Shown: one piece after another, positions 3,814-38,518 of the stretch | How the letters are laid out: each line of letters opens with the position of its first letter | How positions within the stretch are numbered: the first letter of the stretch is position 1 | NCBI GenBank assembly: GCA_007694185.1 | Contig: RECD01000100.1 | Location: 62,001 to 126,000 of the forward strand | Direction of reading: 5' to 3' | DNA from: Planctomycetaceae bacterium | Lineage (GTDB): Bacteria > Planctomycetota > Planctomycetia > Pirellulales > Pirellulaceae | DNA: 64,000 nt | The notes under the pieces: generated by a model | Told to the model about the DNA's origin: nothing | Databases searched by the model: none | Seen by the model: the letters and a program-made list of their open reading frames with translations, nothing else | Made by a program: the position numbers and the translations under genes

Positions 3814-4752
3814 ATGCGGCGTGCGTTTGAGACGGCCCGGGTGCTCCGTGAGAACATCGAACGCGTCGTGCTGGGGAAGCCCGAACTGGTGCGGTCTTTG
3901 GTCGTCGCGATGCTGGCGGGTGACCACGTGTTGTTGGAGGACGTCCCGGGGGTCGGGAAAACCTTGGCCGCCAAGGCGCTGGCGCGAAGCTTGGAAGGGG
4001 CATTCACCCGGTTGCAATTCACCCCCGATCTGCTGCCCAGCGACATCACCGGGAGCATGATCTATCGGACGGACACCCGGGAGTTCGAATTCAGTCGGGG
4101 GCCGGTCTTCGCCAACGTCGTGCTGGCGGATGAGATCAACCGCGCCCCACCGCGGACCCAGAGCGCCTTGTTGGAGGCGATGAGTGAGGGCCAGGTATCG
4201 GTGGACGGGTCGACCTATCCGTTGCCCCAGCCCTTCATCGTCGTCGCCACCCAGAACCCGTTCGAGTTCGACGGGACCTACGTGCTGCCCGAGAGTCAGA
4301 TGGACCGTTTCCTGATGCGTTCGAGCATCGGCTATCCGGTCCGCGAGGTCGAGCGGGACGTGTTGATGTCGCACCGCTTGGGCGAACCGGTCAATCAGTT
4401 GCAACCGGTGGTCTCGGTCGATGACATTCGTCATGCTCAAGAGTGCGTGCGACAGATCGCGTTTGACGCCTCGTTGGTCGAGTACCTGTTAGAGATTGTC
4501 GCAGTGACTCGCCGGACCGAAGGGATCCGGGTCGGCGTCAGCACGCGGGGGGCGTTGAGCTTCTATCGAGGTTGTCAGGCGCGTGCGGTTACCGAGGGGC
4601 GAGAATATGTCACCCCGGATGACATCAAGTGCTTGGCCGTCTCGGTGCTGGCACACCGGATCGTTCCGGATTCGGTCTTGGGTGTGGTTTCGCGGGGCCA
4701 GGTCGAGAATCGGGTTCGAGAGTTGGTCGAGCAACTGGCGGTGCCTGTGTAG
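3814..4752 (+). CDS. MoxR-family AAA+ ATPase
   Basis: MoxR-type AAA+ chaperone ATPase, 312 aa, the usual length. These ATPases are thought to assist maturation of partner proteins, often encoded next to DUF58 and VWA/transglutaminase proteins as here. Walker A is GVGKT (about residues 44-50) in LLEDVPGVGKTLAAKALA, Walker B is VVLADEINRAPP (about residue 103 on), followed by TQSALLEAMSEG and ATQNPFEFDGTYVLPESQMDRF, all hallmark MoxR segments, and a C-terminal lid domain. ATG 3814 was preferred over an upstream in-frame start at 3703 because the family N-terminus aligns from MRRAFETARVL. It is first gene of a moxR-DUF58-transglutaminase-cmk operon. Confidence 0.93.
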   Translation: MRRAFETARVLRENIERVVLGKPELVRSLVVAMLAGDHVLLEDVPGVGKTLAAKALARSLEGAFTRLQFTPDLLPSDITGSMIYRTDTREFEFSRGPVFANVVLADEINRAPPRTQSALLEAMSEGQVSVDGSTYPLPQPFIVVATQNPFEFDGTYVLPESQMDRFLMRSSIGYPVREVERDVLMSHRLGEPVNQLQPVVSVDDIRHAQECVRQIAFDASLVEYLLEIVAVTRRTEGIRVGVSTRGALSFYRGCQARAVTEGREYVTPDDIKCLAVSVLAHRIVPDSVLGVVSRGQVENRVRELVEQLAVPV

Positions 4753-4796
4753 TCCCCGATCAGATCTCGCGTCCCGCGTGCCTGGTGAGGGGAATT

Positions 4797-6260
4797 GTGA
4801 CGCGAATGGGTGACGCGAATGGGTGGCAGAATCGAGTGAACGCGTCGATCTCATTGACCCGATTGGGTTGGCAATTTCTCTTCATCGGCCTGTTCGCGAT
4901 GATCGGCGGGGTGATCCGTGCCTACAACCTGCCGTTGGCGTTGGCGGGGTTGATCATCGCCGCGACGCTGCTGCATTGGAGGTGGTCACGTCATACGGTC
5001 AGGTCGTTGGCCTTGACCCGTGATCTGCCGGAAGAGGCCTACGCGGGTCGCCCTTTCCTGGTCCGGTTTCGAGTGACGAATCGGTCCAAGTGGTTGCCGG
5101 CTTGGTTGATCCGGATCGACGATTCGGTCGTGGGCTCCGAAGCGGAGCAACCGCGATCGGGGGGACGGGTCGCGCGGCTGGTGGCCTGGGCCGTCGGCAC
5201 GCGAATTCCCTTGATGGAGCGGCTCCTTGGCAGCGTCTCCAACCGGCGTCCCCGAGGGGGGGGGCGCGGTTGGCGTCCGAACCGTTCTTGGGTCGGGAGC
5301 GGGATCGGCATGATCCCACCGGGCGGCACCTTGGCGACCTCCTACCGATGCGTCGTTTCGTGTCGTGGGCGTTACGATTTTGGCCCGGCATCCGTGTCCA
5401 GCGGCAGCCCGTTGGGGCTGTTGATCTATTGGCGAAGGGTTCCGCTGGTTTCGAGTCTGTGGGTTTTTCCCGAATGCCTGCCGCTGCGACCCGAATGGCG
5501 AGAACGCTTGTCGTCCCGTGGAGGGGGAGATGCGCTTTCGGCGCGTCGTAGCGGTGGCGTGGACGGTGAGTTTTTTGGGATTCGTGGTTGGCGAGCCGGC
5601 GATAGTCGTCGCTGGATCCACTGGCGGACGACAGCTCGCATCGGTGAACCGGCGGTTCGCCAATTCGAACAGGATCGGCGGTTGCAATTCTGCATCCTCC
5701 TCGATGCCTTCGTTCCCGATCCCGGGCGGTTGCCGGAGGAGCCCTTGGAAGGACTGGCGAAACGGGATGCAGAAGCGGCCCTGGAAACCGTCATCCGAGT
5801 CGCGGCCTCGATCGTGACGCAGTTGAGCGGGGTTTCCGGCAATCGGATCGGTCTGGTACTGGCGGGTGACCGAACGACCCCGATGGTAACCGTCGGCGGA
5901 CGCGAGCAAACGATCGGCATCTTGCGCGCCTTGGCCGAGTTGGCTGGGCACCCGAACCCTGACCTGGAAGAGGCGATCCGGCAGGCTCATCACCAGCTGG
6001 GTAAGCCACGGGCCTGGTTGGTGCTCAGTCCTCGGCGGCAGAGCGACCTGCGAAAAGTAGCGTTCGCCGGTTTGTTCGTCGACGGGGTTTGCACTTGGTT
6101 GAGCACCGCCGATGGTAGTCTGGACGGCCTGCTCGAAGGGTCCAGTTGGGGCCCGGTGGCGGTATCGGGAGGATCGTCCGGGGACGCTTCGCCGGCCGGG
6201 CCGAGCCAGGTGGTTGCCGAGCGAACGGCGACGGATCGGGAGGTCAGGGTGGTCGGATGA
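4797..6260 (+). CDS. DUF58 membrane protein
   Basis: DUF58-domain protein of 487 aa, partner of the MoxR ATPase just upstream (44-nt gap). Two hydrophobic helices lie near the N-terminus (about residues 20-65). They are followed by a beta-rich region and then the DUF58 core, recognisable by FFGIRGWRAGDSRRWIHW and TTARIGEPAVRQFEQD (around residues 255-295), and a VWA-like segment beginning LQFCILLDAFVPD. Function in general is unknown; the context suggests MoxR-assisted assembly of an envelope protein. Start GTG 4797 is chosen because GGTGAGGGG sits 5-6 nt upstream; ATG 4806 is a close alternative. The stop overlaps the next start as ATGA. Confidence 0.85.
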   Translation: MTRMGDANGWQNRVNASISLTRLGWQFLFIGLFAMIGGVIRAYNLPLALAGLIIAATLLHWRWSRHTVRSLALTRDLPEEAYAGRPFLVRFRVTNRSKWLPAWLIRIDDSVVGSEAEQPRSGGRVARLVAWAVGTRIPLMERLLGSVSNRRPRGGGRGWRPNRSWVGSGIGMIPPGGTLATSYRCVVSCRGRYDFGPASVSSGSPLGLLIYWRRVPLVSSLWVFPECLPLRPEWRERLSSRGGGDALSARRSGGVDGEFFGIRGWRAGDSRRWIHWRTTARIGEPAVRQFEQDRRLQFCILLDAFVPDPGRLPEEPLEGLAKRDAEAALETVIRVAASIVTQLSGVSGNRIGLVLAGDRTTPMVTVGGREQTIGILRALAELAGHPNPDLEEAIRQAHHQLGKPRAWLVLSPRRQSDLRKVAFAGLFVDGVCTWLSTADGSLDGLLEGSSWGPVAVSGGSSGDASPAGPSQVVAERTATDREVRVVG

Positions 6261-28085: not shown

Positions 28086-28400
28086 TCAGAAAGGAGGAGA
28101 ATTGGTCACATAGGAAGGTACATCAGGCTCGCCCGCGGGGCCGGGCTCGGCATCACCGTCACTCGCGGCCTCCGGTACGGGAACGTGAGCGTTTCGCCCA
28201 CCGTCGCCACGAGCGTCTCGCGCGTTGCCACCGCGAGCGGTCACGCAGCGGCCGGTGGCAGGACGTTCATCGATCAGCATTCGAACCGGAGGGGTTTCTA
28301 AGTCGTCGAATTGTCCCCGACGGATGCAGATCACGCAGGCGACCATCGCGGCGGCCCCCAACAAGATCGCCGCCGGCAATGCGACATACAATACGCTCAT
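28086..28400 (-). CDS. ccoS: cbb3 oxidase assembly protein CcoS
   Basis: Small single-helix membrane protein, 104 aa, needed to insert cofactors into cbb3-type cytochrome oxidase. The N-terminal helix (VLYVALPAAILLGAAAMVACVICI) is followed by the CcoS signature RRGQFDDLETPPVRMLID. The tail from about residue 48 is Gly/Arg/Asp/Pro-rich and longer than in typical CcoS (50-70 aa). ATG overlaps the ccoI stop by four nt. Confidence 0.9.
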   Translation of the reverse strand: MSVLYVALPAAILLGAAAMVACVICIRRGQFDDLETPPVRMLIDERPATGRCVTARGGNARDARGDGGRNAHVPVPEAASDGDAEPGPAGEPDVPSYVTNSPPF

Positions 28401-30988
28401 GCCTCGTCCTCACGGAAGGTTGCCGAAGCCAAAATCATCGCCAGCACGGTCAACGAACTGATCGGCATGATCAACGCTGCGGTCAACGGACCGACCCGAC
28501 CGGCCATCGCCAGCAAGATCGCGATCGAATTGTAGGCTAGGGAGACGGCAAATGTCTGCCGAATTAACCGCACGGTGCGCCTCGCCGCCAACATCAGTTC
28601 GGGTAGCCTGCCCAGATTACCGTCGGCGAGGAACACCGGGGCTGCCTCCAGGCTCGTTTCCGCCCCGCCTCGGATGGCGATCCCCACGCCGGCAGCCGCG
28701 AGCGCTGCGGCGTCGTTGACCCCGTCTCCGACCATGGCGACCGAGCCCGGTGTTTGGCGGATTTGGGCCAATTTCTCCTCGGGCGAAAGGTCACCCAATG
28801 CCAAATCCGGCCGGATACCCAATTCAGCCGCAATCCGGCTGACACAAGCCTGGTGGTCACCGGACAAAATCCCGACTTGCCAACCGGCTTTTCTCAGCCC
28901 CAAAAGCGCCTCGAGCGCGGTCGGCCGCAATCCGTCACTAACCCCGAAGACGCCGACCGGTTGTGTGTCGATCGCATACAAAATGGGGCTGATGCCCGTC
29001 CGGGCGAACTCCGTGGCCTGTGGCTCGATCGGCTGGGGGTCGAATCCCTGGCGACGAAGGTAACCGGCGTTGCCGATCACCACCCGGTGACCGTCGGCCG
29101 TCCCGTCGATACCCCCGCCCGTCTGTTGGTCGATGGGGCGGTCGAGTGCGGGAGGTCGAAAATCGGACACGTCGTCCCCGCAGACCAATCCGCGAGCGAC
29201 GGCCAAGTCAACGACGGCCCGCGCGACCGGGTGATCGCTCGATCGCTCCAATTCAGACAGCAGGCGGAGCGTCTCGTCATCACCGGACCAACGGGTGACC
29301 CGCAGTCGGCCGTCGGTCAGCGTTCCCGTCTTGTCAAACCAAGCCATGCCCGGCGTCGCGAGTCGCTCCAGCACGTCGCCGCCACGGACCAGAATCCGTC
29401 TGCGGGCCGCACGGCCGATGCCGACCGCGAGGGCCATGGGGGTGGCCAGCGCGAGCGCGCACGGACAGGCGACGATCAGCAACGCGACGGCATGGGTGAC
29501 CGCGACGGACGGCCCACGCGACCACCAAGCGACGGCGGTCACGGCGGCCAAAAACAGCACCACGGCGACAAACCAACCGCCGACCCGATCCGCCAAATGC
29601 ACGATCGGGGCCTTGTTCTGGGCCGCGTCCTCGACGAGCCTCATCAGCCGACCGACGCGGGTATCTGTCCCGGAGGCAGCGACACGGATGTCGATCGGTG
29701 CCCGCAGGTTTGCCGTCCCCGCTTCTACCTCGTCCCCCGGACCGATTTCGACCGGCAGGCTCTCGCCGGTCAGCAGCGAACGGTCCAGCATCGAGTTTCC
29801 CGAGATCACGATCCCGTCGGCCGCGATGCCTTGGCCGGCTCCTACGCGAATCGTCTCTCCGGCAATCAAGTCCTCCGCCGGGACTTTGCGGGTCGAGCCG
29901 TCGGCTTCGACCCTGCGTGCCGTCCTGGGCGATATTCGCATCAACAGTTGGACGGACTGGGCCGCCCGTCGCTGCTGGCGAAACTGCACCCATCGTCCGA
30001 CGAGCAGCAAGAAGACGAGCATCGTGATCGAGTCGAAGAAGACCTCCCCCCGTCCCGAGATCGCGCCGGCCATGCCGGCGACCGCGCCGACGACGAGGGC
30101 GAGGGCCAACGGCAGGTCCATGTGGGGCGTGCGGGTGCGAAGGGAAGCCCAGCCGCCACGAAGGAACAGGCCGCCCGGACCGAAGACGGCGAAGACCCCG
30201 AGCCCCGATCCGACCAGCCGCAGCAGATTGGCATCGCCAACCGCGATGCCGCTGAAGTGTCCGGCGTACAGCGCGACGGCGATCCACATCGCGTTGGCCG
30301 CGCAGAAGGCCGCGACGGCGATCCGCATCAGCAGTCGGCGGTTCTCCTCTCGAGCCGCTGCCGCCCCCGAATCGCTCAGCAAGGGGCCCAGCCGATATCC
30401 GAGGCGGGACAACCAACGGGCAATTTCACTGAGTCGAGTCCGGTCGGGATCGTAAACCAGTTCGACGGAGTGGTCGTTCATCCTGACCCGCGCGGAGTGC
30501 CAACCGGGGACCAGCGGTGCGGAACGCTCGATTAGCCAAGCGCAGGCCCCACAGTGCAAGCCACGGATGCTGCAGGTCGACGCGACCAGCCCGCTGCCGA
30601 CATCCCGCGGTGCGGACTCACCGAGCAACGCGGGGTCATCCAGGTCCTCCCAAGCTTCGTCACGGTCGGCCACCGGGCCGATTTCCGCGACGCCTGATCC
30701 GGACGTGAGCCGATCTCGCAGCGCGTAGTAATCGTCGAGCCCCCAGCCGTGGATCAGTTGATAAGCACCCAGGCACCCCGAACAACAAAAAGTCGGCTCA
30801 TCGGGAGCGGTGGGCGGTGGCGACGGCAGGCCGCAATGCGTGCAGGGATAGCCGGAGTCAAGCGGATCGAGACGGCCGAGGATACCGCCGGAATCAGTTC
30901 CTGCGGGCTCGTTCCCCTGAGCCGAAAAGCGATCGTTTGATTCCGCCACCGATCCCGCTTTGGGGGTCTCGGTCCAATGCGTGCTCAC
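28397..30988 (-). CDS. ccoI: Copper-exporting/maturation P-type ATPase CcoI (FixI)
   Basis: P1B-type copper ATPase that supplies copper for cbb3 oxidase assembly; 863 aa. N-terminal CTHCG (49-53) and FCCSGC (67-72) form the ATPase metal-binding leader. A heavy-metal-associated domain has GLHCGACAW (C146, C149). Membrane helices begin at about 221. The TGES actuator loop is at 408-411, the membrane CPC motif at 508-510, the phosphorylation loop DKTGT at 552-556 and the hinge GDGVND at about 754-759. The DUF2318-like cysteine leader and operon with ccoG, H and S distinguish it from CopA. The start is GTG 30988, which overlaps the upstream stop. Confidence 0.93.
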   Translation of the reverse strand: MSTHWTETPKAGSVAESNDRFSAQGNEPAGTDSGGILGRLDPLDSGYPCTHCGLPSPPPTAPDEPTFCCSGCLGAYQLIHGWGLDDYYALRDRLTSGSGVAEIGPVADRDEAWEDLDDPALLGESAPRDVGSGLVASTCSIRGLHCGACAWLIERSAPLVPGWHSARVRMNDHSVELVYDPDRTRLSEIARWLSRLGYRLGPLLSDSGAAAAREENRRLLMRIAVAAFCAANAMWIAVALYAGHFSGIAVGDANLLRLVGSGLGVFAVFGPGGLFLRGGWASLRTRTPHMDLPLALALVVGAVAGMAGAISGRGEVFFDSITMLVFLLLVGRWVQFRQQRRAAQSVQLLMRISPRTARRVEADGSTRKVPAEDLIAGETIRVGAGQGIAADGIVISGNSMLDRSLLTGESLPVEIGPGDEVEAGTANLRAPIDIRVAASGTDTRVGRLMRLVEDAAQNKAPIVHLADRVGGWFVAVVLFLAAVTAVAWWSRGPSVAVTHAVALLIVACPCALALATPMALAVGIGRAARRRILVRGGDVLERLATPGMAWFDKTGTLTDGRLRVTRWSGDDETLRLLSELERSSDHPVARAVVDLAVARGLVCGDDVSDFRPPALDRPIDQQTGGGIDGTADGHRVVIGNAGYLRRQGFDPQPIEPQATEFARTGISPILYAIDTQPVGVFGVSDGLRPTALEALLGLRKAGWQVGILSGDHQACVSRIAAELGIRPDLALGDLSPEEKLAQIRQTPGSVAMVGDGVNDAAALAAAGVGIAIRGGAETSLEAAPVFLADGNLGRLPELMLAARRTVRLIRQTFAVSLAYNSIAILLAMAGRVGPLTAALIMPISSLTVLAMILASATFREDEA

Positions 30989-31983
30989 AGGCCGCTCCCT
31001 CGGGGAACGGTGGATGTGTCGACCCGAGTCGGGGATGTCGGCTGGGCTGGCGAAGTCACCAGCGGTTCCCCCGCCGGTTCACAGCAGGGCAGCGGTTGGG
31101 CACCCAGGCCGTCCAGCCAATGCCGAGCGTCGGAGCCATCGTTGGAAGTGCCCCACTGCCTCGCCGCTTCGCCCAGCGGCCGCAGGTCGGCAGCCGCCCG
31201 GCCGCTGATCGTGTAGCTGCCGCTAACCAACAACACCACCGCGATCAACAGCGGCATCGCGGATCGCAATCGGGGGGCCACGCCGACCGTGCCGATCGCG
31301 CCGCCGACCAAGGCGGTTAGGGCCGGGAGGGTGCCGAGCCAAAAGGCGGTCATTACCAAAACAGCCGTCAGTGGCGAAGCGGTCGCCGCCGCGACCAAGA
31401 CGAACAGGTACAGCCAACCGCATGGCAACCAGGTCGTGACCAGGCCGATGGCGAAGGCCCGGGACAGTCCCGGCAAGCGGGTGATGGTGGGCCGGAGTCG
31501 AGCGAGCTGAGCGGAAACGGCGAGCGACCAGCGACGATTCCAAGCAGGCCCGGGGTAAGGGGCAAGCCCCGATTGGCTCGCAAATTTTGGGCGGCTTGCT
31601 GGTGATGCGGCGACTTGCCCGGCGGCCGCTGGGTCGGACGTCTGATGATCCTGCCAGACGCTCGGCCGGAGCCAATTCAGCAACCGCCACACGCCCATGC
31701 CGATCATCGCGGCGCCGGCCAGCCGGGCGGCGGACTGTTGCCACCCCAGCCAGTCGCCACCAGCGGTCACCAGACCGCCGAACCACCCGGCTGCCAACCC
31801 GGCGGCCAAGAAAGTGACGGCGCGACCACCGTGGTAGGCCGTCAGTCTGGCCCAAGCTCCCCCACGATTGACGCCTGATTGGCCCACGCCGCCCGCCCAC
31901 AAGGCCATCGGACCGCACATGCCGACGCAATGCATGCTACCTAACAAGCTGGCCACCAGGATCGCGCCCGCCAAGCCGATCAT
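30985..31983 (-). CDS. SafE/TauE-like membrane protein of the cbb3 maturation operon
   Basis: 332-aa polytopic membrane protein of the sulfite exporter TauE/SafE (urease-accessory UreH-like) group, commonly found in ccoGHIS clusters. Signature GSMHCVGMCGPMALW (from residue 15) contains the CxxMCGP Cys pair, a potential metal ligand. There are about six hydrophobic helices and a soluble stretch at about 110-150. In such clusters it is suspected to help copper or haem delivery for cbb3 oxidase, but function is unproven. Its start overlaps the ccoH stop and its stop overlaps the ccoI GTG. Confidence 0.75.
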   Translation of the reverse strand: MIGLAGAILVASLLGSMHCVGMCGPMALWAGGVGQSGVNRGGAWARLTAYHGGRAVTFLAAGLAAGWFGGLVTAGGDWLGWQQSAARLAGAAMIGMGVWRLLNWLRPSVWQDHQTSDPAAAGQVAASPASRPKFASQSGLAPYPGPAWNRRWSLAVSAQLARLRPTITRLPGLSRAFAIGLVTTWLPCGWLYLFVLVAAATASPLTAVLVMTAFWLGTLPALTALVGGAIGTVGVAPRLRSAMPLLIAVVLLVSGSYTISGRAAADLRPLGEAARQWGTSNDGSDARHWLDGLGAQPLPCCEPAGEPLVTSPAQPTSPTRVDTSTVPRGSGL

Positions 31984-32651
31984 GGCGCCGCTCCGACGCG
32001 TCCGGTGTCCGCAGCGAGTCCTGAGCTCAACTTTGGGTCGGCCTCGGAATCGATTTCGAGACGTTGGTCGGTGGCAAGATCGACCGTACGTGTCCAGCGA
32101 AAACGCTCGGATTCACCCCGGCTGAGTGTCAGATGCAGGTCCCACAAGCCGAGACGGGCCAGCGGCAACCGGGCCGAGTAGACCCCCGGTGCCGACTCCG
32201 CCAAGGGCCGAATCGTATGATCGCCCGCCCGAACGTGATGAAAGAAGGCCAGTTCCACTTCACCGCCGAGGATCGGCTCACCGGAGGCGTCGAGCACACG
32301 TACCTCAAAATCTCGGAACTCACCCGCTTCATCGAGCTGGCCGATCAGGGCGGTCGCTTGCCAGCCCAACGCATCGCTCAGCTTACGGCTGGCGACCTCG
32401 TCATCCCAGCGCAACGCCCGCTCATGGTAGTCCGGCATCACCGCGACACTCGGGTCCCGTGACGCCAGCCGGTAAGCCAGGCCGCCGATGACCAATTGCA
32501 GGGCCAAAAAGGCCACGACGACGCAACCCCATAACCAAGCCGCACGCTTCGCGGCCGGGCCACGCAATTCGGGACGGTCCGATCCGTCCTCTCCGTTCGG
32601 GTTGTTCGACGACGCGAGTGCTGATGGCGACCGGTTAGGGGCCTGGCTCAT
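31980..32651 (-). CDS. ccoH: FixH/CcoH family protein
   Basis: CcoH (FixH) single-pass membrane protein that assists cbb3 oxidase assembly. 223 aa with an N-terminal soluble stretch, a helix at about 37-60 (AAWLWGCVVVAFLALQLVIGG) and a periplasmic domain beginning PSVAVMPDYHERALRWD, the characteristic FixH region. Later VRVLDASGEPILGGEVELAFFHH and GLWDLHLTL match the family fold. ATG 32651 is preferred; a TTG at 32657 would overlap the ccoG stop as TTGA and is possible. It sits between ccoG and the SafE-like gene. Confidence 0.85.
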   Translation of the reverse strand: MSQAPNRSPSALASSNNPNGEDGSDRPELRGPAAKRAAWLWGCVVVAFLALQLVIGGLAYRLASRDPSVAVMPDYHERALRWDDEVASRKLSDALGWQATALIGQLDEAGEFRDFEVRVLDASGEPILGGEVELAFFHHVRAGDHTIRPLAESAPGVYSARLPLARLGLWDLHLTLSRGESERFRWTRTVDLATDQRLEIDSEADPKLSSGLAADTGRVGAAP

Positions 32652-32653
32652 GG

Positions 32654-34168
32654 TCAACGCTCCGGGCCGAGCAAGCGGAAGGTCAGTTCACGGACGCTGC
32701 CGGTGTCATCGGTGATTCGCATCCGACCATCGACGTAACCCGACTGGGCAGTTATCCGTGAGGAAAAATCGATCACCACCGGGATCACCGCCGATTCGCC
32801 ATCCGCCAACCGGAGCTTTTCCGGTTCGATCACTTCCAATGCCACCCCGGCCGGCTCGGGAGCGGTCACCGCATAGACCCGTTCGGCGCCGCTGCGATTG
32901 ACCAGTCGCAAACGCAGGGTATTGCGTACCTGTGCCCCCGCGATTCGGGTGAAAGGGTTGCCCGGGCCGCGAGTGACGCGCGCATCGAAGCTGTATTTTT
33001 GGCTCAGCTCACGGGCGAACCCGACGCCGATCAACAGCAGGATCATCGGGTAAATGACGGTTCGGGCGCGGAGCAAACCACCGGCTTTACCGTCGATCCC
33101 GTCTTGCGAATCGTAACGGATCAGACCCCGTGGCCGACCGATGCGGTCCATCACGTCGTCGCAGGCGTCGATGCACTGGGTGCAATTCACGCATTCCAGC
33201 TGCAACCCGTCGCGGATGTCGATCCCGGTTGGGCAGACGGCGACACAGCGGTTGCAATCGATGCAATCACCCGCTTCGCGAGGGGCGTCTGACCCTTCGG
33301 CGGTGGCGGGCCGCCGGCCTTTTTTTCGGGGTTCGCCCCGATGGTGGTCGTAGGAAATGATCAACGATCGCCGGTCCAGCATGACCGATTGGAAGCGTCC
33401 GTAGGGGCATGCGATCAGGCAGAGTTGTTCGCGGAAGAACAAGAAATGGAATAGCATCAAGCCGGTCGTGATCGCCATCACCAGAAAGGCCGTCGGATGT
33501 TCCCAGGGAGGGGTGCGGATCCAACGCGCCAGCGATTCGACGCCGACGAAGTAGGCCAAAAACGTATGCGCCAAGAGCATGCAGATGACCAGGTAGACCG
33601 CCCATCGGGCAATCCGACGAGCCCCAACCAAGGGCCGTTTGGGCCGTCCGCCCCGACCCGCTGTTCCTTCGAAGAACCGGTCGATCGGGCGAAACAGAAA
33701 TTCCATGTAGACCGTTTGCGGGCAAGCCCAACCACACCACAGTCGCCCGCCGATCGCCGTGACCAACATGATCGCTAGGAAGACGAGTAGCATCCCCAGC
33801 GCGAGCAGCAGGGTGTCGGTCGCACGGAACACCGAACCGAGGATGATGAACTGACGGGCCGCGATGTCGAGCAGAATCGGCGGCTTGCCGCCGATACTCA
33901 GGTGCGGCAGCGCAATGAACACGACCGCCAACACATAGGCCACTACCCGGCGACGCTTCCAAAACCGACCGGTCGAAAGCAGCGGGTACATCCAACGCCG
34001 CGATCCGTCGCTTTCCAGCGTGCTGAGCACATGTTCTGGAGAGGCGAGCATCGTCTCCTGGGAGCCGTCTTCGCGACGAACGCGATCGTCAGACTCCGCG
34101 GTGACCACCGGAAGGGTTCGCGATTGCTGCTCGTGATCCCCTGTGGGGCCGCCGGTTGCCGGGTTCAT
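32654..34168 (-). CDS. ccoG: Cytochrome cbb3 oxidase accessory protein CcoG
   Basis: Polytopic membrane iron-sulfur protein that reduces copper for cbb3 oxidase maturation. Membrane helices include VVAYVLAVVFIALPHLSIGG and LGMLLVFLAIMLVTAIGG. Conserved GRLWCGWACPQTVYMEFLFRPID is followed by CLIACPYGRFQSVMLD and two 4Fe-4S motifs: CIDCNRCVAVCP and CVNCTQCIDACD. The C-terminal Ig-like domain (RNTLRLRLVNRSGAERVYAV) is typical. ATG 34168 is chosen because AAGG lies just upstream; ATG 34186 is possible. The frame extends further to 34324 but that stretch has no homology I recognise. First gene of the ccoG-H-SafE-I-S operon. Confidence 0.9.
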   Translation of the reverse strand: MNPATGGPTGDHEQQSRTLPVVTAESDDRVRREDGSQETMLASPEHVLSTLESDGSRRWMYPLLSTGRFWKRRRVVAYVLAVVFIALPHLSIGGKPPILLDIAARQFIILGSVFRATDTLLLALGMLLVFLAIMLVTAIGGRLWCGWACPQTVYMEFLFRPIDRFFEGTAGRGGRPKRPLVGARRIARWAVYLVICMLLAHTFLAYFVGVESLARWIRTPPWEHPTAFLVMAITTGLMLFHFLFFREQLCLIACPYGRFQSVMLDRRSLIISYDHHRGEPRKKGRRPATAEGSDAPREAGDCIDCNRCVAVCPTGIDIRDGLQLECVNCTQCIDACDDVMDRIGRPRGLIRYDSQDGIDGKAGGLLRARTVIYPMILLLIGVGFARELSQKYSFDARVTRGPGNPFTRIAGAQVRNTLRLRLVNRSGAERVYAVTAPEPAGVALEVIEPEKLRLADGESAVIPVVIDFSSRITAQSGYVDGRMRITDDTGSVRELTFRLLGPER

Positions 34169-34411
34169 CGTTTTGCCTTGATCCATCACCGCGCGAACGT
34201 CGACAGCGATAGCGGGGAGCAGGTGATCCGTTTCAACGCGAAGGAAGCCGCTGAACGGCGAGGGCGGGCGTTGGAGGCAAGACTCGCAGACGTCGGCGAG
34301 CCCAAACACCTCGGTGTCGGTCACCCGCTCCGTTACATTCTTTCGCGACCGGTGGGAGCCTGCAAGTGGAATCGGATCGGCAGCGACAATTCACCACTGC
34401 CGGTCGTCGGC

Positions 34412-35605: not shown

Positions 35606-36883
35606 TCAATACCGACCCAAACAGAGGCAGACGTTTTGGCCCCCGAAGCCGAAGCTGTTGTTGAGGGCGTAATCGATTTTGGCCTCGCGGGCGGCGTTGG
35701 GGACGTAGTCCAGGTCGCAGTTCGGGTCCGGATACTCTTGGTTGATCGTCGGGGGTAAAACCCCGTCGCGGATGGCCAGCAAGCAGACGATCATTTCGGT
35801 CACGCCGGCGGCGGCGATCAGGTGTCCCATCATGCTCTTGGTGCTGCTGACCGGGACCCGCATGGCGTGTTCACCGAAGACCTGTTTGCAGGCGAGCGTT
35901 TCGACTTTGTCATTGACCTGGGTGCTCGTGCCGTGGGCGTTGACGTAGCCGATCTGCTCGGGCTGCAGAGCGGCGTCAGCGATCGCCATCCGCATCGCGG
36001 CGATCCCGCCATGCCCGTCCGGCGGGATGTCGGTGATGCGATAGGCATCGGCCGTGGTGCCGTACCCGAGGACTTCGCCGTAAATCGCCGCTCCGCGTTT
36101 CTGGGCCTGTTCCAGTTCTTCGAGGACGACCATCGCGGCCCCTTCGCCGAGCACAAAGCCGTTCCGTTTGCCGTCAAACGGACGGCTCGCCTTGGTCGGC
36201 TCCTCGTTGCTCGTCGAGAGCGCGGTCAACAGGTTGAAGCCGGTCACGCCGAAGGGGTGGATCATGCTGTGGGTACCGCCGGCGAGCATCACGTCGGCGT
36301 CACCGCGGCGGATCATTTCGGTCGCCTCGCCGATCGCCTGGCTGCTCGCGGCACAAGCGGTCAGGCAGTTGAAGTTCGGCCCTTGGGCATTGAACATCGT
36401 CGCCAGATGAGCCGCCGGCATGTTCGGTTCCTGCTCCAATTCCTTGATCGGATTGAGCACTTTCAAACCCTGGCGAATGAACTCGGCGGCGTCGTACTCG
36501 CCTCCCCGCATGGCGGCTGACATCATCTGGGTGAACGTGCGAAAGTCCTGGTTTCCTTCGCCACTACCCAAATAGATTCCGAAACGGATCGGATCGATCG
36601 CGGCATCGGCCAACCCGCTATCGGCGATCGCCTGTTTGGCGGCACCGACGGCGAACTTGGTGTGCCGCCCGCGATCCCGCCAAACTTCCGCCGACTCGCC
36701 CGCGTCGGTGATGTCCCAACCCTTGACTTCGGCCGAGATCTTCGTGGGGAAACCGCTGGCATCGAACAGCGTTGTCGGGGCCACGCCACTGCCTCCCTCC
36801 CGGAGTCCGGCCCAGACGGTGGCGACATCATGCCCCATCGGGTTGATCATTCCGAGACCGGTAACAACGACGCGACGACGCAT
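35606..36883 (-). CDS. Beta-ketoacyl-ACP synthase (FabF-type KAS)
   Basis: Condensing enzyme of the KAS I/II family, 425 aa. The catalytic triad is visible: Cys177 in CLTACAASSQA, His317 in NAHGTSTQVND and His354 with Lys349 in TKSMMGHLIAAAG. The N-terminus RRRVVVTGLGMINPMG is typical. The conserved SSFGFGG-type C-terminal loop appears as NNSFGFGGQNV. ATG 36883 is the likely start; an in-frame TTG at 36916 overlaps the preceding stop. It lies downstream of a hot-dog protein, ACP and FabZ on one strand, indicating a dedicated acyl-chain cassette. Whether it is the housekeeping FabF or a specialised paralogue cannot be decided here. Confidence 0.88.
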   Translation of the reverse strand: MRRRVVVTGLGMINPMGHDVATVWAGLREGGSGVAPTTLFDASGFPTKISAEVKGWDITDAGESAEVWRDRGRHTKFAVGAAKQAIADSGLADAAIDPIRFGIYLGSGEGNQDFRTFTQMMSAAMRGGEYDAAEFIRQGLKVLNPIKELEQEPNMPAAHLATMFNAQGPNFNCLTACAASSQAIGEATEMIRRGDADVMLAGGTHSMIHPFGVTGFNLLTALSTSNEEPTKASRPFDGKRNGFVLGEGAAMVVLEELEQAQKRGAAIYGEVLGYGTTADAYRITDIPPDGHGGIAAMRMAIADAALQPEQIGYVNAHGTSTQVNDKVETLACKQVFGEHAMRVPVSSTKSMMGHLIAAAGVTEMIVCLLAIRDGVLPPTINQEYPDPNCDLDYVPNAAREAKIDYALNNSFGFGGQNVCLCLGRY

Positions 36884-36912: not shown

Positions 36913-37419
36913 TCAAAGTTTGTCAGAGACGCCCAACGGTTGCCCGTCGCGGCCGATCCCACAGTCAAAAAGCTTCATGATTCGCAGCATCTCTGCGAGA
37001 TCGCCCGAATGGAACAAGGAACCTTCCGCGAACCGACCTGCTTCCAAGAAGGCGAACATCAGGTCGATCTCGGCATGCGGCTGTCCGTCAATCTGGCTGG
37101 TCGCGGTCACCCGCGCACCGTGTTCCTGGGTCCCTTCCAGTCTAACCCAGTAATCCATCCGATCGCCCGGCGTCGCCTGGCGATGGAATTTGGCGTTGCC
37201 GATCTTGGCGAGGACGACGCGTTTGTCCCAATCGAAATGCTCGGCCACCAAAATCCCCCCCAACTGCGCGATCCCCTCAATGATCAACGTCGACGGAAAG
37301 AATGGGAAGCCGGGACAGTATTCATCGACCACTTCCTGATCGAGCGTCACGTTCTTGATCCCACGGGCGTGGGATCCGCTGACGAACTCGGTAAAGCGAT
37401 CGATCCAAAACCAACGCAT
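36913..37419 (-). CDS. FabZ/FabA-like hot-dog protein lacking the catalytic His
   Basis: 168-aa single hot-dog-fold protein related to 3-hydroxyacyl-ACP dehydratase FabZ. The central helix reads YCPGFPFFPSTLIIEGIAQLGG. Glu48 is kept in the position of the catalytic Glu, but Tyr34 replaces the catalytic His of HFPxxP and the surrounding GHP is GFP. Otherwise length and fold fit FabZ (VVLAKIGNAKFHRQATPGDRM is the FabZ-like strand). It may be a structural partner of the intact FabZ two genes away, or have another chemistry. It overlaps the KAS gene start region and follows the ACP gene with 16 nt between. Clearly expressed together with them by layout. Confidence 0.78.
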   Translation of the reverse strand: MRWFWIDRFTEFVSGSHARGIKNVTLDQEVVDEYCPGFPFFPSTLIIEGIAQLGGILVAEHFDWDKRVVLAKIGNAKFHRQATPGDRMDYWVRLEGTQEHGARVTATSQIDGQPHAEIDLMFAFLEAGRFAEGSLFHSGDLAEMLRIMKLFDCGIGRDGQPLGVSDKL

Positions 37420-37435
37420 CGGAATCTCAGCCTAG

Positions 37436-37819
37436 TCAGATCTTGGAAGCGACGTAGTTGCACATATCGCCGACGGTCAGCAGATTGCCGAAGTCCTGGA
37501 CCCGAGGATTCTGCTCGAACTTGGACAGATTCGCCCATGGCATCCGCTGCTTGAGGACCTGCATCCCCTCGGGCGTCACCAATCCGTCCTGAACGTACTG
37601 GCTGTTGGTCAGGATGTCCTCGGGCGACAACTCTTCGCGGGGGATCGTGATCCCGAAGCTCTTCTCGAGCTTGAACACGATGTCCAGAAAATCGATCGAT
37701 TCGGCACCCAAATCACCCACCAGCGTGGCCTCGGGGGTGACCTCGTCATCGTCAACGCCCAAGGCATCAACCAACGACGCACGGACCTTATCGAACACTT
37801 CTTCGCTACTCATGCTCAT
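37436..37819 (-). CDS. Acyl carrier protein, C-terminally extended
   Basis: 127-aa acyl carrier protein. The ACP fold occupies residues of about 1-75 with the phosphopantetheine attachment Ser41 in DLGAESIDFLDIVFKLE. This is followed by an extra 50 residues (from about QYVQDGLVTPEGMQVL to the end) that standard 77-aa ACPs lack; they are helical and charged and end with FGNLLTVGDMCNYVAS. It lies between the intact FabZ and the His-less hot-dog protein. It is probably the carrier for this cassette instead of the housekeeping AcpP. An internal ATG at 37813 is equally possible. Confidence 0.88.
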   Translation of the reverse strand: MSMSSEEVFDKVRASLVDALGVDDDEVTPEATLVGDLGAESIDFLDIVFKLEKSFGITIPREELSPEDILTNSQYVQDGLVTPEGMQVLKQRMPWANLSKFEQNPRVQDFGNLLTVGDMCNYVASKI

Positions 37820-37996: not shown

Positions 37997-38518
37997 TTAA
38001 CTGATTTGCCCATCCTGGGGACACGGAGATTTCACGGCCCGAACAAGATTTTCAAGGGGGCCGAACAGTTTCTGAAACTGCTCTCGCACCAAACCTCGCA
38101 CGCGTTCGTCTGTATCGATTGCCGAACCCTGAGGAGTCGAGCATTTTTCCAGAACCAAACGGGCTAATACCGTCGTCCGTCCGCCTTTCTCTCCGCTAGC
38201 CTTCACCGAAACGAACTGACCCTCTTCCTTGGTTCGCTGGACTTTTACGGTCAGCGTCTCACCGGGACAGAGAAAATCACCGAACTTGACGCTCTTGACT
38301 TCGCTGAGCACGACGAGCGGGTCGGCGAAATCGTTTCCCGTCCGGATCATCCAGGCCGCCGCTTGGTGCAAAGCCTCGAGCATCATCACGCCCGGCATCA
38401 CCGGAAACTTGGGGAAGTGATCCGCCAAGTACTCTTCATCGGCACGCAGGGTTCGCTCGGCGACCAGCCGTTCGCCCGGCACCAGTTCCACGATTCGATC
38501 CAACTGGCAGTACTTCAT
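37997..38518 (-). CDS. fabZ: 3-hydroxyacyl-ACP dehydratase FabZ family
   Basis: 173-aa hot-dog dehydratase with the complete active site: His34 in DHFPKFPVMPG and Glu48 in VMMLEALHQ. It converts 3-hydroxyacyl-ACP to trans-2-enoyl-ACP. Strands VLSEVKSVKFGDFLCPGETLTVKV are typical of FabZ. The C-terminal 40 residues (after VLEKCSTPQGSA) are an extension. First gene of the fabZ-ACP-hot-dog-KAS cassette; a 177-nt gap separates it from the ACP gene. Divergent from alaS across a 294-nt region with two inverted repeats. Confidence 0.9.
   Translation of the reverse strand: MKYCQLDRIVELVPGERLVAERTLRADEEYLADHFPKFPVMPGVMMLEALHQAAAWMIRTGNDFADPLVVLSEVKSVKFGDFLCPGETLTVKVQRTKEEGQFVSVKASGEKGGRTTVLARLVLEKCSTPQGSAIDTDERVRGLVREQFQKLFGPLENLVRAVKSPCPQDGQIS

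Follow-up and report, generated by a model that had tools for sequence, protein, structure and literature searches.

A histidine-less FabZ-like protein as the probable glutamate-donating partner of a FabZ-type dehydratase in Planctomycetota

What does a FabZ-like protein that lacks the catalytic histidine do in the same gene cassette as an intact FabZ? The question is raised by a locus on the minus strand of a 64,000-nucleotide stretch of DNA of a Planctomycetaceae bacterium (the whole analysed stretch is called the window below). An earlier note had placed there a FabZ-like protein with Y34 and E48, and had proposed either a heterodimeric dehydratase with one inactive subunit or a changed reaction. 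The coordinates were found to be right: the FabZ-like hot-dog protein, designated DHY, is encoded at 36913..37419 (stop codon included, minus strand), consists of 168 aa, reads VVDEYCPGFPFFPSTLIIEGIAQ and, besides Y34 and E48, has a serine at position 43. The FabZ-type hot-dog protein that the note had called intact, designated DHH (37997..38518, minus strand, 173 aa), reads LADHFPKFPVMPGVMMLEALHQ and indeed has H34 and E48, together with G43. A long acyl carrier protein (ACP; 37436..37819, minus strand) of 127 aa with Ser41 in GAESIDFLDIV lies between the two, as had been noticed, and a FabF-type beta-ketoacyl-ACP synthase (KS; 35606..36883, minus strand) with C188, H328, K360 and H365 completes the order DHH, ACP, DHY, KS. 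Since only 16 bases separate ACP from DHY (37420..37435, minus strand) and 29 bases separate DHY from the start of KS, the gene spacing suggests a single transcript. KS most likely starts with the ATG at 36883, since an N-terminus extended to the TTG at 36916 is missing from nearly all orthologues; the KS residues are numbered according to the longer reading.

DHY and DHH are paralogues (26% identity over 109 aa, E 2e-13), and residues 34, 43 and 48 of the two can be treated as equivalent, since the active-site region aligns without gaps. Both have the FabA/FabZ hot-dog fold, with Pfam FabA matches of 49.5 bits for DHY and 61 bits for DHH (cutoff 23), and both remain below the NCBIfam FabZ equivalog cutoff of 113, their best scores being 78.6 and 77.4, respectively. 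A catalytic His and Glu within one protein are present in DHH and absent from DHY owing to Y34. The AlphaFold monomer models had a mean pLDDT of 89.7 (DHY) and 90.0 (DHH), and the best 50 PDB matches listed for the DHY model were FabZ chains, for example 6n3p (E 9.7e-12). KS passes the KAS II subfamily model NF005589 (477.5 bits, cutoff 387), and its Cys-His-His site (C188, H328, H365) is complete. In the ACP, residues A39-D46 show a conservation of 1.00 over 80 aligned rows, and the phosphopantetheine motif is an ESID that is invariant across these rows. Residues F101, P105, F110 and L114-V116 are conserved in the C-terminal extension of the ACP, and this conservation suggests that the ACP may have a specific partner.

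To place Y34 in context, position 34 was read in 373 DHY loci, which were reduced to 319 unique proteins by their first 130 residues: 188 have His, 112 Tyr, 11 Leu, 5 Asn, and Phe, Gln and Val occur once each. The 112 proteins with Tyr rule out an isolated substitution, and nearly all of them belong to the family of the window, which answers the earlier call for a search in other planctomycetes. Among the tree rows that carry a family code, this family (f1) has 40 Y34 and 9 H34, the remaining Pirellulales families have His, and the only Y34 outside f1 comes from one distant genome of the other class (L308, family f129); L34, in turn, marks family f119. A count over the window and 80 public loci (81 rows: Y 72, H 7, F 1, Q 1) was disregarded for bias: Tyr is part of one of the six peptides used in the search, which inflates the Tyr share of the public loci. 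Whole-genome searches, by profile or within the relatives set, yielded 247 of the unique DHY, and of these 183 have His, 47 Tyr, 11 Leu, 5 Asn and 1 Val. The expectation that Y34 always accompanies an intact FabZ held in 95 of 95 Y34 pairs, in each of which DHH has H34 and E48; Tyr itself is not general, however, as most relatives outside the family have His. Gly43 of DHY has been lost more widely than H34, with Gly left in 27 of the 319 proteins and Pro found in 49, and position 48 is Glu in all 318 readable sequences.

DHY is retained on a scale well beyond the family of the window. It was matched in 38 of the 40 genomes of the relatives set, own genome included (E ≤ 0.001), and in 37 of these at E ≤ 2.2e-30, the match in the remaining one (G021) being in pieces owing to a masked stretch. 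With a 43-row profile (E ≤ 1e-28), DHY was found in the order in 280 of 296 genomes and in a second class, that of genome G165, in 282 of 298; with genomes restricted to at least 90% completeness and at most 5% contamination, the counts were 202/206 and 223/230. In the class of the window, all 40 genomes among the matches listed have DHY (E ≤ 2e-45). The phylum tally of 355/392 at E ≤ 1e-12 was set aside for DHY, as other FabZ homologues pass that threshold too. Phycisphaerae and Planctomycetales, as names for the class and order of the relatives, are guesses from gene content. The 80 public loci include some whose sequence stops early; 79 of them contain ACP, 73 KS and 66 DHH, and 60 carry the complete set of four on a single strand. 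Loci L076, L098 and L107 extend several kb downstream without KS. Of 14 genomes with no DHH near DHY, 13 carry DHH elsewhere (E 2e-56 to 8e-65), with H34 and G43, and one (G954) gave no clear DHH elsewhere. With antisense shadow frames set aside, no further gene family adjoins the cassette in more than 28 of the 80 public loci. These data bear on the idea that Y34 is neutral local decay with no functional partnership behind it. Position 34 and the loop around it do vary widely within the family of the window, as such decay would have it; the retention of DHY throughout the order and the second class, the kept gene order and an E48 that is never lost make the idea hardly credible.

In the FabZ of Helicobacter pylori, the active site is formed by His58 and Glu72', the prime denoting the other subunit, according to a passage of PMC2692856. 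Since the His and Glu of FabZ come from opposite subunits, a DHH/DHY dimer would hold two sites: site A, with H34 and G43 of DHH and E48 of DHY, and its mirror image, site B, with positions 34 and 43 of DHY and 48 of DHH. DHY may then be expected to be co-catalytic, because its E48 would complete the site of the partner's His. From the sequences, the gene order, the conservation and the losses on trees we infer a physical association of DHH with DHY, an activity, a partnership with ACP and KS and, as discussed further below, a product. In the proposed mechanism, DHH would contribute the loop, carrying His34 as catalytic residue and Gly43 for the oxyanion, and DHY the helix with the catalytic Glu48, which would make it the co-catalytic half of the enzyme and not a passenger. 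Site B would be dispensable and would have been disrupted repeatedly; the disruptions in the window would be H34Y and G43S of DHY. The substrates would be 3-hydroxyacyl chains on the long ACP, dehydrated by the complex and elongated by the adjacent FabF-type KS. The changed reaction that had been suggested need not be invoked, since one complete His, Gly and Glu set remains.

The two sites have fared very differently. After 59 of the 319 unique DHY that had no DHH in the stretch (many stretches being short) were left out, 260 unique pairs remained. Site A is complete in all 258 readable pairs, whereas site B is broken at DHY 34 or DHH 48 in 122 of the 260. Glu48 of DHH is present in 247 of 259 readable pairs, and the 12 DHH without it retain H34 and G43. 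Changes were counted on a tree of 256 rows built without columns 34, 43 and 48; loci L034 (DHH cut), L217 (masked), L216 (joined frame) and L199 (low DHH score) were left out. The fewest changes required were 10 at DHY 34 and 8 at DHH 48, and none at DHY 48 or DHH 34. A 157-row IQ-TREE quick tree of all odd rows and a random draw of others gave 10 and 7, respectively, and none at DHY 48, DHH 34 or DHH 43. Glu48 of DHH was replaced by Gln at least 7-8 times. If the two sites were equally free to decay, the two-sided chance of 18 losses versus 0 would be about 8 in a million, provided that changes are independent; the counts are parsimony counts, and the trees have many weak branches and are built from DHH and DHY themselves. 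Both residues of site B are lost in locus L327 (N34, Q48). In the genome of L091 (Pirellulales), a DHH outside the counted pairs (L406) has Gln48 and retains H34 and G43, about 10 kb from its DHY (His34, Glu48); judged by its sequence, this is a further loss of the spare site.

The same division was observed around the catalytic residues. At loop positions 34, 35, 36, 43 and 44, the changes number 0, 0, 2, 0 and 1 in DHH versus 10, 47, 36, 68 and 37 in DHY; at helix positions 48, 51, 52 and 55, they number 0, 0, 1 and 0 in DHY versus 8, 49, 8 and 49 in DHH. Positions 31, 33-36 and 42-44 of DHH have 0-2 changes each, and those of DHY 10-68, except for 3 at the shared P42. The mean number of changes over positions 1-63 is alike in the two proteins (34.4 and 39.6). 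R2, W3 and D7 of DHY, which lie away from the site, are frozen as well, and this counts against the composite site. As a control, we used a profile-based set of 22 other FabZ homologues, namely 2 from the own genome and 20 with longer frames from other genomes, the latter being probably LpxC-FabZ fusions: H34, G43, E48 and Q52 are present in all 22, A51 in 21 and G55 in 20. On these counts the split is regional, the frozen His loop belonging to DHH and the frozen Glu helix to DHY, and the two proteins look like complementary remnants of one ancestral active site.

Two explanations without a shared site have to be weighed against these results. According to the first, DHH acts as a usual FabZ homodimer, and DHY forms homodimers of its own with a different activity (that of an isomerase, a thioesterase or something else) in which E48 works without His. 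Hot-dog enzymes without His can act, an example being a thioesterase with a Glu base (as given in part of PMC516016), and both the 318 of 318 readable DHY with E48 and the 247 DHH that retain E48 agree with this explanation. It is improbable, in our opinion, as the 12 paired DHH and L406 have lost E48 yet kept H34 and G43, the helix half of DHH (positions 51 and 55) has drifted in general, Pro has replaced Gly43 in 49 of the 319 DHY, and the residue at DHY 34 varies from lineage to lineage (Y, L, N, V, F, Q), which is more readily expected of loss than of a new chemistry that depends on a particular residue. According to the second, DHY is a scaffold or an ACP-docking subunit whose E48 and helix are kept for folding or packing, and catalysis is left to DHH homodimers or other dimers. 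The frozen A51, Q52 and G55 near E48, of which A51 and G55 also count against our reading, and the conserved C-terminal extension of DHY past the hot-dog fold would suit this explanation. Nevertheless, a purely structural E48 in DHY is unlikely because Gln is tolerated at the same position of the fold in DHH, and the helix residues kept by DHY are exactly those kept by other FabZs; we give this explanation little chance.

The comparative evidence thus strongly supports a DHH/DHY heterodimer, and it is highly probable that the heterodimer is of the FabZ type with one essential composite site made of H34 and G43 of DHH and E48 of DHY. The heterodimer of the earlier note is supported by the complementary degeneration and by the DHH found elsewhere in 13 of the 14 genomes; its inactive subunit calls for revision, since E48 is present in every readable DHY. 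A simple dead subunit was therefore dropped in favour of a Glu donor, in agreement with the frozen helix, and FabZ homologues without His should not be labelled inactive on that ground. What appeared to be a single odd residue would be part of a phylum-scale natural experiment, in which paralogous subunits share out catalytic residues, the spare site is lost repeatedly and the shared site never, and a route from homodimers to obligate heterodimers can be followed. It also yields residue-level predictions for the bench on two proteins. Against a strict heterodimer counts the fact that E48 of DHH would be idle in the 95 partners of Y34 DHY, all of which keep it; DHH homodimers or a structural role of this Glu are therefore possible. 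DHY has His34 in 147 of the 256 tree rows, so that both sites, or homodimers of DHY, could remain functional in many lineages.

The closest to direct evidence for the association of DHH with DHY is locus L216 (4019-5233, minus strand), where the two are found in one open frame with no stop between them. It is a second copy without ACP or KS in 6.4 kb, the same genome has a normal cassette (L018), and an internal GTG could start DHY separately, so we regard it as suggestive. In the double hot-dog DH domains of polyketide and animal fatty acid synthases, His comes from one half and the acidic residue from the other, giving one site. These domains are one polypeptide, whereas DHH and DHY are two genes, and the joined frame of L216 is a possible one-polypeptide form.

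Among the known systems, the principle is best matched by ApeI/ApeP of aryl polyene biosynthesis, a heterodimer with one active site that replaces the homodimeric FabZ, as described in a section of PMC8041823. As in our pair, one subunit has His and the other has none but keeps an acidic residue: the putative ApeI of E. coli CFT073 retains His and Gly (GHFAVQPLLPG), and the putative ApeP lacks His and retains Glu (FALELMAQ). Unlike DHH, ApeI has Asp at position 48. Sequence similarity of DHH to ApeI is too weak for orthology (24% identity, 83 aa, E 4e-6), DHY and ApeP showed no BLAST similarity and an hhalign probability of 5%, and the 80 public loci have no recurrent aryl-polyene accessory genes next to the cassette. 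Membership in the aryl polyene family is accordingly unconvincing, with a weak DHH/ApeI match and no convincing DHY/ApeP one; the cassette would work like ApeI/ApeP, by a principle already known, and sequence does not place it in that family. The best explanation is a planctomycete variant of the ApeI/ApeP principle with its own long ACP and ketosynthase. Mycobacterial HadAB and HadBC also combine two different hot-dog proteins into one active site for an ACP-borne substrate, and in HadAB the His-Asp dyad lies wholly in HadB, HadA binding the chain (excerpts of PMC4491049). The HadAB proteins belong to another hot-dog family, and, unlike there, His and Glu of DHH/DHY would come from different proteins, as in FabZ. 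No description of the planctomycete DHH/DHY pair was found among the literature matches listed, in which subscription journals are thinly covered.

As for the product, the rhizobial acpXL-fabZXL-fabF2XL-fabF1XL cluster makes very long acyl chains for lipid A, as a portion of PMC11901934 describes. It resembles our cassette in having a dedicated long ACP, a FabZ and FabF beside a housekeeping set, and differs in having one FabZ. The ACP of the window scored 53.1 bits, below the cutoff of 83, against NF005079, which we take to be the AcpXL model, with the match extending past the usual ACP end to residue 90. A lipid A acyltransferase does not stand out next to the cassette, where the neighbours, counted as unannotated families, each occur in at most 28 of the 80 loci. 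The cassette is not the sole FAS II set of its genome, since a separate ACP and FabF pair is located on contig C242 (44% and 46% identity), and C69 and C111 carry two further homologues of FabZ in which His and Glu are intact. Another ACP and ketosynthase pair (30% and 39% identity) was noticed in the same genome at C171:49367-50915. An envelope lipid would be a likelier product than a specialised metabolite, given how widely the cassette recurs and that it exists in addition to housekeeping FAS II genes; the cassette points to conserved lipid synthesis in a phylum with unusual membranes. The LPS of Planctomyces limnophilus contains 74.1% 3-OH C14:0, 22.5% C20:0 and 3.4% C18:0 (PMC3035269, in a passage citing Kerger 1988). 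A role in the long 3-hydroxy acyl chains of lipid A is our leading guess, though a doubtful one; a 3-hydroxy product needs no final dehydration, which is a difficulty, and the dehydratase would serve earlier rounds of elongation. In a broader form, which we find plausible but would not rate at even chances, most Planctomycetota would have a second dedicated type II acyl-synthesis module, comprising DHH, the long ACP, DHY and KS, and in some lineages a ketoreductase or a chain-length-factor-like second KS, with the split FabZ at many stages of spare-site loss and the pairs as a two-gene natural series toward the single-site double hot-dog. The product of the module would be a conserved lipid of the envelope, for which the long 3-hydroxy acids in planctomycete lipid A are a candidate. 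Ladderane/anammox clusters contain SAM-radical enzymes according to the part of Rattray et al. (PMC2649909) consulted. Such a cluster was rejected, as no SAM-radical enzymes were seen among the recurrent neighbours, a set counted as unannotated families.

Several cassettes differ in composition. In locus L163 (family f18, which we think is Planctomycetales), a FabG-like reductase was seen by eye between DHH and ACP (2214-2966), which suggests that this reductase was lost or moved in the order of the window. In L171, DHY is followed by a second ketosynthase-like protein (4531-5847), in which Glu replaces C188 and Thr replaces H328. Such two-KS cassettes, where the second KS adjoins an intact one, occur in several genomes of the other class. 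Chain-length factors lack Cys, and the residues of the second KS of L171 suggest a chain-length-factor-like protein, that is, a second pseudo-heterodimer in the same cassette. Locus L211 (family f113) has a larger cluster, with four dehydratase-type matches and two ketosynthases around an ACP. In the window itself, genes for a metal P-type ATPase, a ferredoxin-type protein and small membrane proteins, recognised by eye, lie at 28397-34324 on the minus strand, and this group resembles a cytochrome oxidase assembly cluster.
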